Assembly (NCBI GenBank): GCA_003225315.1
Contig: QHZD01000018.1
Span: forward strand, 186,001 to 250,000
Origin: Acidobacteriota bacterium
GTDB lineage: Bacteria > Acidobacteriota > Terriglobia > Acidiferrales > UBA7541
Direction of reading: 5' to 3'
Length of the DNA: 64,000 nt
Below the pieces are notes generated by a model. It ran no database searches, was not told the origin of the DNA, and saw only the letters and a list, made by a program, of their open reading frames with translations. How positions within the stretch are numbered: position 1 is the first letter of the stretch; each line of letters starts with the position of its first letter. A program made the translations under genes and the position numbers. Below are positions 55,732 through 59,811 of this stretch, in pieces.

Positions 55732-56384
55732 AGCTGAACGATGCGGATGTTCTCTTCTTCTGGAACACAAAACGCAGGGCAATTGCAGCGCTGCCGTGGA
55801 TGCCTAAAGCGCTTCACTTTTTGGCTTTCTGTACCCATGATTCAGTATTCGTTCGGGGCAAGGAGCGAATCGCCGGAATTGATGGCTTGATTGGGATCAC
55901 AACCGCTGAGGCGTGCGCGGCAGAACTATATTGAAAATCGCCCGGGGGCCACAAAGGCGCCGGAGCATTCCAGGAAGTTGTTCTAAATGGCCAGACATTT
56001 ACAAGCCGGTATGAGCCATGGAGTGACCGGTCATGGCGTCCAAAGCGGCAGTTGCTCCATTTTGAGGCCAAAATGACGCTATTGCAGAACCTGGCGTGCG
56101 TTGTTGCGAGCACCTCATGGGGCGTGCGGCCCCCTGACCCTGCAGTTTCGTTCACATCGCAGTCTGAATCGCGTTTCTGACATCGCACTTTTTCTTATTT
56201 TGATTTCGATCCCGCGTTATTGATCTGCCCGCGCGATGCTTCGGCCCTGGTCTTGGTTGGGATGCCAACCAGACACCTGGCTACAGCGCGCGTTTCCAGT
56301 TTTTCTCATAGCCTCCCCACAGGCTACGAATGGGGCGTCACGATCCAAGCCACCATCGTTTCTACTTTCTTCGAGGAGAGTCAA
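55732..56384. other. Intergenic region upstream of the peptide cassette
   Basis: About 650 bp. A 124-codon minus-strand frame (55814-56188) shows no domain or good start and is likely chance. No tRNA, repeat or promoter was identified with confidence. The last ~30 bases carry the GAGGAG site of the peptide gene. Confidence 0.45.
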
Positions 56385-56588
56385 ATGACGAAATCTAAAA
56401 CTCAGGTAGCGTTTGCCACGTTCGTTTTATCCGCTGCTGTAGCTGTTTTTTCGGGGGCGATACCGGTTCCATTCTTGAATGCAGGGAAGCATAGCCTGCC
56501 GGCAATACAATCCAATGGAGCGGTCACCTTGATCGCCGATGGTGGTGACCCGCAGCCACCGCCGACCCCGCTACCTTGGCTGGTGTAG
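56385..56588 (+). CDS. Small exported proline-rich peptide precursor
   Basis: A 67-residue product with an excellent ribosome-binding site (GAGGAG, 6 nt before the ATG). The N-terminal half (TKSKTQVAFATFVLSAAVAV) is a signal-peptide-like segment. The C-terminus is short and striking: ...LIADGGDPQPPPTPLPWLV, a Gly-Gly followed by a 13-residue proline-rich tail. It could be a processed signal peptide or a bacteriocin-like product. The next genes on the same strand encode two membrane proteins and a soluble protein, then a convergent XRE regulator. Not recognised as a known family. Confidence 0.7.
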   Translation: MTKSKTQVAFATFVLSAAVAVFSGAIPVPFLNAGKHSLPAIQSNGAVTLIADGGDPQPPPTPLPWLV

Positions 56589-56693
56589 TGTCCTAAAGGA
56601 ATGACGCGCAGTGGGGAAGACGCTCTGCGCTCTTCCCCCTCGGTCGTGCTAGCATTTGCTCCCGAGGGCCTGCCAGGCCCGCTCCGGAGGAAA

Positions 56694-57455
56694 ATGCTCG
56701 GGCAAGCCATTTGGTGGGGCAGTATTACCCTGGAGACTTTGCTGTTAGTTCGCGGGCTCCAAGGCAGACTGCTCGCCCGATTTCCGGTTTTTTACGTCTA
56801 TATTTTATTCGTCTGGTTGCAGTCTCTCCTGCGCTTTTCCATATACCATGCTCGCCCACAGCTCTATCTACCGGTTTATTGGATCACGGAGTATTCCGGC
56901 GTCTTAATCGGTTGCGCGGTAGTTTTTGAGATTTATCGCGTGGCGCTGGCCGCCTATCCTGGCACGGCGCGAATGGCCAGAAATCTCGTTACCTTCGTGT
57001 TTGTGATGGCCTTCACGAAAGGGCTGGTCGAGACTTGGAACAATCCGTATTGGTGGTCTGTAACGACCACGATAGAATTTGAGCGCGCGCTTAGAACCGT
57101 GCAAAGTCTGGCGATTATTGCTCTTGTGGCGCTTTTCCTGTTTTATGCAATTCCCTTCGGCAGGAATCTAAGAGGCATTCTTCTAGGGTATGGCCTGTTT
57201 GTGGGAATCAGCGTAATCCAACTGACGTTCGTAACCAATACCGCGAGCAGGTTTAACCGTTTCTGGGCACACGTCAGTCCTGGCTCTTACCTCATGGTCC
57301 TCGGTCTTTGGGCACTGCATCTATGGTCCTATGCTCCTAACCCTGAGCCAAAAAGAGCAGTGCGCTTGGAAGAGCAATACCAAAGAATTGCTGCTGCGAC
57401 GGGTCAGAGATTACGAGAAGGACGAGCGTACCTGGCGAAGGTGGTGGGCTCGTGA
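56694..57455 (+). CDS. Polytopic membrane protein of the peptide cassette
   Basis: A 253-residue protein from the ATG at 56694 (CGGAGG upstream). Six or seven hydrophobic spans (TLETLLLVRGLQ, PVFYVYILFVWLQSLLRFSI, YSGVLIGCAVVFEIY, MARNLVTFVFVMAFTKGL, SLAIIALVALFLFYAI, GLFVGISVIQLTFVTN, YLMVLGLWALHLWSY) and a basic C-terminal cytoplasmic tail. No catalytic motif was recognised. It lies 106 nt after the peptide gene and overlaps the next gene by 4 nt. Transporter, receptor or peptide-processing partner are open options. Confidence 0.65.
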   Translation: MLGQAIWWGSITLETLLLVRGLQGRLLARFPVFYVYILFVWLQSLLRFSIYHARPQLYLPVYWITEYSGVLIGCAVVFEIYRVALAAYPGTARMARNLVTFVFVMAFTKGLVETWNNPYWWSVTTTIEFERALRTVQSLAIIALVALFLFYAIPFGRNLRGILLGYGLFVGISVIQLTFVTNTASRFNRFWAHVSPGSYLMVLGLWALHLWSYAPNPEPKRAVRLEEQYQRIAAATGQRLREGRAYLAKVVGS

Positions 57456-58003
57456 TCGGAACCACCACTGCACTAATCGGAGCCGCTGTCCTTCTTGTAT
57501 TGATACTCGTGTGGGTCCGAGGGCAATCGGCCTCGCGACATCTGCCTGCTGTTATGGACGAGTGGCTGACTGGCCAGGACGACCTCCCGGAGGCGTGTCC
57601 GCCGGAATTTGTCTCGCAAATCTTTTCAAGCCGGGACTTTGAATTCATTTCTCGGTTGGAATCGGTCGATTTGAAGCGGCTCTTCCTTCGGGAGCGCAAT
57701 GCCGTGGCGCTGCTTTGGGTGCAGCAGACCGCGGCCACCATCCGCCGAATCATGCGCCACCATTTGGAAGCGAGTCGGCTGAGTGCGGATATTAAATTCG
57801 CGATGGAGGCTAGGATACTCCTCCAATACGCACAACTCAGGCTGATTTGCGGAGCTCTTTTTCTTTTGATTGGATTGGCGGGCCTAGAGAGGCTGCGCTG
57901 GATGGCCTTGCGCGCCGACAAACTTACTCAGCGCATCGGCAATGTCCTAAGAGAGTTCGAGTCTGGAGCCCGATCGCGCGAAATGGATGGTGTGCAATCC
58001 TGA
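57452..58003 (+). CDS. Membrane-anchored protein of the peptide cassette
   Basis: A 183-residue protein starting with GTG at 57452, overlapping the previous stop by 4 nt (GTGA). It has an N-terminal span (about residues 6-23, ALIGAAVLLVLILVWVRG), a long charged helical middle (FVSQIFSSRDFEFISRLESV, LLWVQQTAATIRRIMRHHLE) and a second hydrophobic stretch (about 128-146, LRLICGALFLLIGLAGLERL). No known domain. Coupled translation with the gene before suggests a complex. Confidence 0.6.
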   Translation: MIGTTTALIGAAVLLVLILVWVRGQSASRHLPAVMDEWLTGQDDLPEACPPEFVSQIFSSRDFEFISRLESVDLKRLFLRERNAVALLWVQQTAATIRRIMRHHLEASRLSADIKFAMEARILLQYAQLRLICGALFLLIGLAGLERLRWMALRADKLTQRIGNVLREFESGARSREMDGVQS

Positions 58004-58040
58004 GCTGCATCGCGTCTGCCGCAATTGAAGCGCCGTAACC

Positions 58041-58490
58041 ATGAGCTCTGCGATCAAACTCGTTCCTGTGCAAGAGGCCTACGACGACCTCTTGAACCGG
58101 ACGCTCGCCCGGATTCCCTGTGATCTTGGGCGCCTGATTTATCTGGCCTCGACGCGCGATTACAACACAGGAAACTATTATCATGAGGGGCTTGCGAACC
58201 GCTTCCGTCCGGAAGTCGCGCGCAAAGCGTTGGAAATCGCCCACCGGCAGGCATTTTACAGACTCTCCGCCTTTTCGCTGGAGAGTTTGGTCAGCGACCT
58301 TGAGGCCTATCTACAGTCTACCCGGGAGAATCCTCGGGAGTTTTTGCGCGCGTGGCAGAAGCTGGAGCCATACCGTGTCGCCATTCCTACAGAAGTGAAT
58401 TTGACGGTTGCGCGCCTCTTCACTTCCAATCTCAGACTCGCCTTGGCAATCTTGCATTATCGTCAGGCGCAGAATCACTTGGGTCGCTGA
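58041..58490 (+). CDS. Soluble hypothetical protein of the peptide cassette
   Basis: A 149-residue, mostly helical protein (QEAYDDLLNRTLARIPCDLG, FRPEVARKALEIAHRQAFYR, FSLESLVSDLEAYLQSTREN). No signal peptide or span. It is 37 nt after the membrane-anchored protein. Its last 59 bases overlap the 3' end of the regulator gene on the other strand. Function unknown. Confidence 0.6.
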   Translation: MSSAIKLVPVQEAYDDLLNRTLARIPCDLGRLIYLASTRDYNTGNYYHEGLANRFRPEVARKALEIAHRQAFYRLSAFSLESLVSDLEAYLQSTRENPREFLRAWQKLEPYRVAIPTEVNLTVARLFTSNLRLALAILHYRQAQNHLGR

Positions 58491-59313
58491 GTCTCATCGC
58501 CACGGCTGTCACCTGCCCGACGATCTCAGCGTCGGTTCCAAACTTGAATTTTCGCACGCTGCATGGAGAGAGAGGATGAGGCAGTAGCAGGAGGTGGTCG
58601 TCCAGAAGATCACACCACGCGCAAGCATAGCCGTCGCGCAACTCTACGAAATAGATGGCGCGGTCAAACTCGGTGCGGCGGCGAAGCGGCTGCACTTTTC
58701 TGACGCGTGAATCGATTTGCACGAAGGAACCAGGGCGTAGCAGGGGATAAAGGGTGTAATCCTGCAGGCCAACGTAACCGTACTGGCTGTGCCGGATGTC
58801 CAGGTGTTGAATCAGCGCGATGGGTACTTCTCCCCAAAGTTCCACCATGCGTGAGAGGAGGTTGGTGTTGTCCACATCGAAGGATCTATCAAACCGGATG
58901 GGAAACGAAACCGTACGGTCCGCGTCGTAAACTTCCAGCGAAGTCAGGTGCGTGTGCGGCAGCGGGGCAGCAAGCTGATGCATCCCCAGCTTCTGCAGGT
59001 CAAGCCCGTACAGGAGCAGCAGGTCGGTGAACTTCATCCTGTAAATAGCGCTCAAACTGTACAGTTTGAATATGCTCGGAACGGAGTCCGAATTCTCGAT
59101 TTGCGTTAGCCAGGCGTTTGAGATCTGAAATTCCGGATTGCCTTCCGCTTCCGCAATACGCTGGCTAAACTCCGCCACATCGCGGGTAGTGATGCCCAGC
59201 CGCGAGCGTAGGTCTTTCAGCTGTTCATTGGGAAGCAGCGCCGTCACAGCTCGGTATCTTACCGCAAGCACGCCTTGAATTAGCTGCCGGGATTGGCACT
59301 TCGAGAAACGCAA
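58432..59313 (-). CDS. XRE-family regulator with S24-like C-terminal domain
   Basis: A 293-residue protein. Residues ~30-105 form a helix-turn-helix of XRE type (LKDLRSRLGITTRDVAEFSQ, ISNAWLTQIENSDSVPSIFK). The C-terminal half reads like a peptidase-S24/LexA-type fold (LYPLLRPGSFVQIDSRVRKV, IYFVELRDGYACAWCDLLDD, AEIVGQVTAVAMRL), but a Ser-Lys dyad is not obvious, so it may be a sensor rather than a protease. The upstream gap 59314-59367 is AT-rich with ATACGTAT (59331-59338). It is convergent with the peptide cassette and probably controls it. Confidence 0.82.
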   Translation of the reverse strand: MRFSKCQSRQLIQGVLAVRYRAVTALLPNEQLKDLRSRLGITTRDVAEFSQRIAEAEGNPEFQISNAWLTQIENSDSVPSIFKLYSLSAIYRMKFTDLLLLYGLDLQKLGMHQLAAPLPHTHLTSLEVYDADRTVSFPIRFDRSFDVDNTNLLSRMVELWGEVPIALIQHLDIRHSQYGYVGLQDYTLYPLLRPGSFVQIDSRVRKVQPLRRRTEFDRAIYFVELRDGYACAWCDLLDDHLLLLPHPLSPCSVRKFKFGTDAEIVGQVTAVAMRLSDPSDSAPDDNARLPRRV

Positions 59314-59367
59314 GTAGACTTATTTAAAATATACGTATTCTTATAACAATGATAGTCAATTACTTTT

Positions 59368-59811
59368 CTATTTACCAATCAGGCTGAGTTGGCTTGCAAT
59401 GCAAAGCCACTGCCCGTCCTTCTTGATCCACGTATCGGTGAACCGGCCGTGATGCGAAAAAGGCTTTCCTTTCTCCGTGCCCTTCTCGTGCGTTGCACCG
59501 ATGACGACCACGGTATCACTGTGCCGGTGCAGCTTCATATCCTCGGAAACTTCAGTCGCGACCTGGATGGACTTGTCTCGGATGGTCGCCAGGAATTGGT
59601 CCTTGCTGAAGACTGTGCCATCGTAGTCCGTGAGAACAAAATCGCTGTCCAGCATTTTCCCCATGGCGTCCGCGTCGTGATTGATCTGCATCTGGTTCCA
59701 CAGATTCTCCAGCGCGATGATTTTCGTCTCGTCACCCTGGGCAATGGAAACGTTTTGCAAGAAGGGCACAGAGACGACTGCAAGCAAGAGAATGAGACGG
59801 CGTAGCTTCAA
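59368..59811 (-). CDS. Secreted NTF2/SnoaL-like (DUF4440) protein
   Basis: A 147-residue protein with a signal peptide (LILLLAVVSVPFLQNVSIAQ) and one NTF2-like cone fold: IIALENLWNQMQINHDADAM, LDSDFVLTDYDGTVFSKDQF, HHGRFTDTWIKKDGQWLCIA. DUF4440 proteins serve many small-ligand roles; no catalytic set was recognised. It precedes the XRE gene on the same strand, 54 nt away. Confidence 0.85.
   Translation of the reverse strand: MKLRRLILLLAVVSVPFLQNVSIAQGDETKIIALENLWNQMQINHDADAMGKMLDSDFVLTDYDGTVFSKDQFLATIRDKSIQVATEVSEDMKLHRHSDTVVVIGATHEKGTEKGKPFSHHGRFTDTWIKKDGQWLCIASQLSLIGK

Follow-up and report, generated by a model that had tools for sequence, protein, structure and literature searches.

A recurrent gene cassette of Acidobacteria with a candidate secreted peptide signal and a co-diversifying seven-span membrane protein

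The window, a stretch of 64,000 nucleotides from an Acidobacteriota genome, contains five adjoining genes, here called A to E (Table 1), and a sequence check verified all five reading frames as real. The first-pass annotation had described this layout as a peptide gene followed by genes for a seven-span, an anchored and a soluble protein, with a convergent XRE regulator. The layout is real, and comparison with the loci of relatives identifies it as a recurrent unit across Acidobacteriota. Gene A has the strong ribosome-binding site (GAGGAG, six bases ahead of the ATG) and the hydrophobic, signal-like N-terminus ascribed to it. Gene B most likely starts at the ATG at 56694, which follows CGGAGG and from which the relatives align; its seven spans stand, but its length becomes 253 aa instead of the 284 aa originally given. 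The anchored protein is coupled to B as described, and E, whose most likely start is the GTG at 59247, is indeed convergent, its 3' end overlapping D by 59 nt. No cassette protein of the window attains a curated cut-off in Pfam or NCBIfam, no Rfam family is found in 55900-59500, and defence-system models return nothing beyond a weak HTH match of E.

Table 1. Features of the cassette, in positions of the window.
Feature	Position	Strand	Description
Gene A	56385..56588	+	ATG start, 67 aa; putative small secreted-peptide precursor; tail ADGGDPQPPPTPLPWLV; conserved upstream of B in relatives
Hairpin	56613..56638	+	GGGGAAGA/TCTTCCCC, between A and B; probably an attenuator or the 3' terminus of A's transcript
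Extended -10-like element	56647..56655	+	TGCTAGCAT; probable separate promoter of B-C-D
Gene B	56694..57455	+	Seven-span membrane protein, 253 aa; candidate peptide receptor
Gene C	57452..58003	+	Membrane-anchored protein, 183 aa, GTG start; overlaps the end of B by 4 nt
Gene D	58041..58490	+	Soluble all-helical protein, 149 aa
Gene E	58432..59247	-	XRE-type regulator, 271 aa; convergent with D; no family detected for the C-terminal domain

Gene D is found in 154 of 299 genomes sampled from the class and in 10 of 396 sampled across the phylum, the two figures resting on different alignments of D, of which the phylum-wide one is the smaller. The host genome carries five copies of the cassette, each with its own distinct peptide. 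Eighty of the 352 relatives of E were taken as loci, and all 80 stand under acidobacterial record titles. Neither B nor E has a match among 72,556 plasmid records, nor does E among 50,697 phage records. Searches of a literature collection whose coverage excludes most subscription journals and bioRxiv preprints turned up no account of such a system. Apparently, the A-E gene set is widespread in soil Acidobacteria and undescribed so far.

Conservation of the 67-codon frame, on which the earlier reading hinged, is borne out by counterparts upstream of B in relatives. A strict filter (small ORF, ATG, strong ribosome-binding site, hydrophobic signal-like N-terminus) finds one in 41 of 53 distinct cassettes against 0.36 expected, and one that is also proline-rich in 39 of the 53 against 0.03 expected, both expectations being derived from the flanks of the same loci. 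Inspection by eye of the 12 failures shows three precursors starting with GTG (L068, L136, L148), one of 187 residues that exceeds the length limit (L087), one with a weaker leader (L115) and five short proline-rich frames without a leader (L064, L139, L145, L147, L150); in L090 and L105 no peptide frame was seen. The peptide gene therefore accompanies B with D or E in 51 of 53 cassettes, 41 by the filter and 10 more by eye. Occurrence of the downstream genes without the peptide had been named as evidence against the reading. Such separation is seen for D and E, which are found without B in stretches of other lineages (e.g. L127, L134, L188, L190) and on the shorter contigs L129, L132 and L137, but cassettes that have B with D or E nearly always have the peptide gene. 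One locus (L069) has B with D and E absent and no peptide gene seen. In the class-wide set, in which L192 and L193 duplicate loci of the first set, the peptide gene is present in 12 of 15 loci with B; none was seen in L182, L186 and L193, the last being truncated where its contig stops. Sec export is not universal, because one clade (L064, L139, L065, L145, L147) has leaderless peptides of 18-30 residues.

Of 66 upstream candidates, 22 have a tandemly repeated tail in which 2 to 6 copies can be counted by eye; the 66 include a locus entered twice, copies that are nearly identical and some frames that are false. The precursor in the window has a single core. Tail repeats were sought identically in all three frames. 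In-frame repeats (22 loci, 1006 codon pairs) have a pN/pS of 0.09, whereas the repeats of frames 1 and 2 (14 loci each; 289 and 293 pairs) give 0.92 and 0.97. When repeats are defined from the DNA alone (23 loci, 1266 columns), differences between copies number 36 at codon position 1, 36 at position 2 and 151 at position 3. As far as these substitution patterns tell, selection is acting on the peptide cores. Fourteen multi-copy precursors have DG cores; in 12 of these every copy carries the same two residues after DG, and those residues vary from locus to locus. Position -1 of the core is A in 43 of 65 cores and position -3 is L in 30 of 65, and the 22 multi-copy precursors contain just one dibasic pair past residue 22. 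Another form of multiplication is seen in L194, where the whole peptide gene is repeated four times in place of tandem tails.

The gap between A and B has a common layout in relatives: a stem of at least 10 pairs is present in 34 of 49 gaps against 3.6 expected, and TGnTAnn[AT]T in 40 of 49 against 1.4 expected from shuffles. The hairpin of the window lacks a T-run, which several relatives have. Consensus scans of 56100-56800 returned no sigma-70 promoter, with no full match at the -10-like element, and no terminator at the hairpin, the one weak terminator lying inside A on the opposite strand. Inspection by eye of the regions upstream of A and of E showed no operator in common. From the frequency of this hairpin and -10-like arrangement, A and B look to be transcribed separately.

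The model of B (pLDDT 84.6) has seven membrane helices and a C-terminal helix, and the positive inner loops and C-terminal part predict an outside N-terminus and an inside C-terminus. The outer halves of the helices with their loops are more variable than the inner ones (entropy 2.56 versus 1.97, p 2e-7); the C-terminal inner part is likewise variable (2.54). The 50 best solved chains for the model are all either seven-span receptors or a designed version of that fold, with Z up to 12.3 (rmsd 4.0, 183 aligned), which is below the level of about 13 that the tool assigns to a mere common helix arrangement; every Foldseek E-value exceeds 0.07, and by sequence B matches no solved protein. Among 52 members of B, each Pfam hit is confined to a single member and no ATPase or protease family recurs, while NCBIfam gives a weak cation-antiporter model in two (best E 0.012) and an archaeosortase model in one (E 0.0031). 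An identity with AgrB was rejected, since only one of the 52 matches, at E 0.23; 7TMR-DISM and other families were likewise dismissed on single weak members and one NCBIfam model in two.

Residues Y46, H48, G50, H68 and P116 of D are invariant across 62 sequences. Its model (pLDDT 92) has no close PDB match, and neither Foldseek (best E 2.1) nor VIA-align (Z no higher than 5.0) gave a relative of use. With hits up to E 1 counted, HTH_31 matches 21 of the 24 E proteins compared; the E protein of the window does so at 0.0021, below the curated cut-off, and the best PDB hits of E are the HTH domains of DdrO (E 0.001). The S24-like domain that had been attributed to the regulator finds no support: Peptidase_S24 is absent from the Pfam hits of all 24 E proteins, a family search of the genome locates S24 in one place only, on another contig, and hhalign, comparing a profile of the C-terminal part against nine S24 proteins from related genomes, returns a probability of 1.3%. 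A LexA/S24-type repressor is rejected by sequence on these grounds. No TPR family is among the hits of the 24 E proteins, although TPR-like members escape such a sequence search.

Diversification of the tail was compared with that of the other proteins at those loci of L071-L150, L042, L054 and the window that offered B, C, D and E along with a called precursor. By our choice, near-duplicates and the leaderless clade were omitted, as were L136 and L143 (Cys-type peptides, C not found) and loci with no precursor or a cut one (L090, L095, L099, L105, L119, L145-L148, L150); L087 (miscalled start) and L091 (broken B frame) were dropped later, reducing 38 loci to 36. In Mantel tests, which take loci as exchangeable, tail distance follows B given C, D and E under three distance measures (r 0.39 to 0.48, p 0.001, n=36). 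With B controlled it follows none of C, D and E, the value for E given B, C and D being -0.27 to -0.11; without this control, some measures tie the tail to C, D and E too (up to r 0.30, p 0.003). The association with B is also present in 18 dereplicated loci (0.36, p 0.012) and in 37 precursors of more than 45 residues with L087 and L113 restored (0.41 to 0.44, p 0.001; the others at most 0.05), and the leader does not track B (0.04). The peptide and the seven-span protein seem, on these comparisons, to have evolved together. Because the outer and the inner halves of B each follow the tail, the test does not point to one contact face. That A and B are neighbours could contribute to the signal; C, which overlaps B, has none once B is given.

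We propose, with a probability of roughly 0.6, that A encodes the precursor of a secreted signalling peptide, which B senses and whose message C and D relay to E. The precursor would leave the cell by the general secretory route and be cut, perhaps after L-x-A and ahead of the DG that opens many cores, freeing a short, mostly proline-rich peptide in one or more copies. B would be the membrane partner of this peptide, most likely its receptor, and would hand its state at the inner face to C and D; these would control E, which would switch target genes, probably including its own cassette. We infer secretion, processing, the receptor role of B, the C/D-to-E relay and the targets from the genomic patterns. 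The peptide signalling originally suggested gains from the conserved precursor, the tandem tails, the selection on them and their co-diversification with B; the S24-like part of the suggestion is unsupported. The co-variation does not speak for RRNPP-like sensing, in which the XRE protein would bind the peptide: the tail follows B, and not E given B, C and D.

Co-diversification could instead join an enzyme or transporter to its substrate, if B and C serve to export, mature or process the peptide and not to sense it, with E-D as regulators of the module. B alone follows the tail given the others, the leaderless clade retains B, and a seven-span protein without a known family could be a transporter; yet 41 of 53 precursors pass a filter that requires a signal-like leader, no ATPase or protease family recurs in B (nor does AgrB beyond its single match), and the inner side is the conserved side of its membrane part. 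We regard this role as unlikely. A toxin with its immunity would also join a diversifying peptide to a co-diversifying membrane partner, A then being a secreted bacteriocin-like or antimicrobial peptide, B/C immunity proteins and E-D regulators, and some E relatives adjoin lasso-peptide-like genes. The tails, however, are mostly non-cationic (median net charge 0 among 52 precursors, 14 positive), and 2-6 near-identical selected copies with one dedicated regulator would better suit a signal, which makes a bacteriocin a distinctly poor candidate. Proline-rich repeats are common among cell-surface proteins, and a secreted structural or adhesive protein beside a B-C-D-E envelope-stress module would account for those of A. 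This is highly improbable in view of the many precursors that are short (43-71 residues) and single-copy, and of cores that are alike within a precursor and different between paralogues of one genome.

The RRNPPA receptors of Firmicutes are described as cytoplasmic sensors that use a TPR or TPR-like domain for the peptide (PMC9765709). The acidobacterial cassette shares with these systems a small, here putatively exported peptide near an HTH-domain regulator, including the N-terminal XRE-type HTH that their DNA-binding members have and E has too; its host phylum is different, its peptide gene adjoins a membrane gene, and its tail co-varies with B and not with E. In Agr systems (AgrB/AgrD), too, the peptide gene has a membrane gene as its neighbour. 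B is not AgrB by sequence, the tail in the window has no Cys for a thiolactone, and the cassette has an XRE-like regulator and no sensor kinase. The fungal alpha-factor pheromone is sensed by a seven-span receptor, and B is like the GPCR-like seven-span receptors in its predicted helix number and orientation; its fold scores against solved receptors are those given above. Accounts of fungal alpha-factor and KEX2-processed precursors describe secreted proteins with several near-identical cores (PMC7329392, PMC6339444). The tandem precursors here also place several cores behind a secretion leader; they are bacterial, nearly devoid of dibasic sites, and many of their cores begin with DG after L-x-A. 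One tentative extension, whose chances we put somewhat short of even, is that the class has a bacterial equivalent of the yeast mating-factor design: multi-copy secreted precursors, private seven-span receptor-like partners that signal to a dedicated transcription factor, and several parallel channels in one genome.

Acidobacteria are reported among the dominant bacteria of many soils (PMC7315648, PMC7661733), and the available text of a phylum review mentions quorum sensing once, for acyl-homoserine lactone genes (PMC7661733). The combined patterns suggest that the cassette may be a new way for bacteria to communicate by peptides. If so, the phylum would gain a testable peptide language, its D gene occurring in half of the sampled class genomes and the host genome having five private channels. 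A seven-span peptide receptor in a bacterium would be something of a new kind. Because the cores are short and predictable and lend themselves to synthesis, a direct test of the idea is possible. Pfam hits of neighbouring genes also place what we take to be lasso-peptide genes beside some E relatives in other Acidobacteria; the neighbours tested in the window do not belong with these and comprise DUF4440, a class-V aminotransferase, GAF, a fatty-acid desaturase and one protein that has no family.

The five genes of the cassette keep the coordinates and order proposed in the first-pass annotation, with the starts of B and E revised here. The ATG of gene A is preceded by GAGGAG at a spacing of six bases and opens a hydrophobic N-terminus (the leader); the precursor ends in the core ADGGDPQPPPTPLPWLV (the tail). 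The host draft genome comprises 4.98 Mb in 57 contigs, and the relatives, gathered as loci with L-numbers, are acidobacterial records.

Genes of the cassette (window positions, strand and product)
A	56385-56588	+	small peptide precursor
B	56694-57455	+	seven-span membrane protein; corrected start 56694
C	57452-58003	+	cassette gene between B and D
D	58041-58490	+	all-helical protein
E	58432-59247	-	end overlaps D; GTG start at 59247

The peptide gene A is real. We searched 53 distinct cassettes in which 500 bases or more precede B for small ORFs (40-170 codons, ATG, strong ribosome-binding site, signal-like N-terminus), and found them in 41, whereas 0.36 were expected from their frequency in 560 kb of flanking sequence; for proline-rich ORFs the figures are 39 and 0.03. 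Five D genes are present in the host genome, and each adjoins its own distinct peptide (in the window, L042, L054, L171 and L064): L171 encodes four copies of ADGWPLPPGPP and starts with TTG, and L064 encodes a leaderless peptide of 30 residues. Distant relatives carry other tails, such as PxPxCxPC types, and L197 has a DDLFPCPDGDCK unit in three copies. Upstream of B in L194 (4736-5336), a 39-codon peptide gene is repeated four times in tandem with identical tails. Secreted peptides with ADG and a cysteine-rich end in CKP adjoin B-D-E relatives in L143 (a record named Acidobacteriaceae), L148 and L176.

Among 66 upstream candidates, 22 have a tail repeated in tandem, to a degree reached by no more than 1 of 500 shuffles. 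The L042 tail contains ADGTEPPPPPIPW three times, L106 six variants of EDGTQPVPPPIIPPH, L089 four copies of LDGPMRPHV, and L100 four of DVPNPGPH. Copies differ by 439 silent and 108 replacement changes (pN/pS 0.094), a ratio biased low by the choice of segments on amino-acid identity; we therefore applied one repeat search to all three frames. Frame 0 yields a pN/pS of 0.09 (22 loci, 1006 codon pairs), versus 0.92 in frame 1 (14 loci, 289 pairs) and 0.97 in frame 2 (14 loci, 293 pairs). Repeats defined solely on DNA (23 loci) differ at codon positions 1, 2 and 3 in 36, 36 and 151 cases, and no period breaks the frame. The three-frame ratios and these codon-position differences indicate that the copies are conserved in amino-acid sequence. 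Cores starting with DG (65 in 33 loci) have A at -1 in 43 and L at -3 in 30 instances; the precursor may be processed after L-x-A, before DG.

Across 36 loci and three distance measures, tail distance follows B distance with C, D and E removed (r 0.39, 0.44 and 0.48; p 0.001 each), and the relation holds after dereplication to 18 loci (0.36, p 0.012). The corresponding partial correlations are -0.04 to 0.02 for C, -0.05 to 0.04 for D and -0.27 to -0.11 for E. In the same precursors, the leader shows no tracking of B beyond C, D and E (0.04, p 0.29). Without this correction, correlations of 0.24-0.30 link global tail distance to C, D and E as well, and the leader is linked to all four proteins (0.27-0.33), as expected from shared ancestry. 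The seven-span part of B tracks the tail more (0.42) than its C-terminal part (0.18); its outer and inner halves were not distinguishable in this respect.

In the model of B (pLDDT 84.6), seven helices span the membrane and one more lies at the C-terminus. K/R residues are frequent in loops 1, 3 and 5 and in the C-terminal part (means 3.1, 2.5, 2.1 and 6.1) and scarce in loops 2, 4 and 6 (0.9, 0.6 and 1.3), a pattern that predicts the N-terminus outside and the C-terminus inside. Within the membrane part, variability is higher in the outer half (mean entropy 2.56) than in the inner half (1.97; p 2e-7); the C-terminal part, outside this test, is variable as well (2.54). Among solved structures, seven-span receptors rank closest (Z 12.3, rmsd 4.0, 183 aligned), a score in the range, below about 13, that may reflect a common helix arrangement according to the comparison tool, and Foldseek returned no E-value below 0.07. 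Our claim for B is thus limited to a receptor-like design of the model, not homology.

The most likely reading, to which we assign a probability of about 0.6 from sequence comparisons, is that the A peptide would be secreted as a signal, B would sense it, and C and D would relay the signal to E. Counting against signalling are the clade with leaderless peptides of 18-30 residues and the D+E pairs without B. B might instead export or process the peptide, which we consider unlikely, and a toxin with its immunity protein appears less probable still. Peptide signalling is already known as a working principle. For RRNPPA, Agr, S24 and KEX2-repeat systems alike, the cassette departs from one or more of the defining features tested. 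No description of such a system was found in the open-access literature searched, and to our knowledge multi-copy secreted peptides paired with seven-span proteins are undescribed in bacteria. Of the parts of the cassette, only the HTH of E could be placed in a known system; the proposed mechanism is putative.

Of 49 A-B gaps, 34 contain a stem of at least 10 pairs (3.6 expected), and 40 have TGnTAnn[AT]T within their final 75 bases (1.4 expected). A T-run follows the hairpin in several loci and is absent in the window, where the A-B region revealed no terminator or full sigma-70 promoter. We infer that A is probably transcribed on its own and that a second promoter drives B-C-D.

In Pfam and NCBIfam, the five window proteins have no match at the curated cut-off; E has weak HTH matches. 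No family was detected for the C-terminal domain of E, and the S24-like domain first proposed for this protein finds no support. D is confidently modeled as all-helical (pLDDT 92), with no close match in the PDB. Median distances are lowest for E, the most conserved protein (0.39), followed by D (0.57), B (0.68), A (0.77) and C (0.82).

Of 61 genomes searched, 35, the host among them, have a B relative. B, D and E are found together in 37 of 40 stretches around B relatives; of the others, L052 and L057 end at contig ends and L069 has B alone. Close relatives maintain the order A-B-C-D with E convergent, and in more distant ones B is oriented away from D. When the E alignment was used to scan a single genome of each species, it gave 352 relatives, of which the best 80 are all acidobacterial by record title. 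Of 95 genomes of the order, 79 have D, as do 154 of 299 sampled from the class and, with a smaller alignment, 10 of 396 sampled phylum-wide; because D also occurs without B, these counts represent D alone, not complete cassettes. Plasmid and phage records gave no match to E, nor plasmid records to B.

Several further arrangements were observed. B is split across two frames in L091, and L105 has no clear peptide frame upstream of B, both possibly decaying. The stretches of L127, L129, L132, L134 and L137 contain a D-E pair without B, then genes of cluster c32, whose L127 member is deoxyhypusine-synthase-like. E relatives in L121, L124, L125, L126, L131, L138, L141, L142 and L144 adjoin an opposite-strand gene with E-like matches, of 530-580 residues where gene listings were made. 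Pfam neighbours are an ABC exporter, a prolyl oligopeptidase and an APH-type kinase in L124, and asparagine synthase and Transglut_core3 in L131, families we take to be reminiscent of lasso-peptide clusters. A tandem second E copy is found in L054, L113 and L114; past it, L113 has PqqD-like, ABC-exporter and glycosyltransferase genes, so the cassette may border on a peptide-modification cluster.
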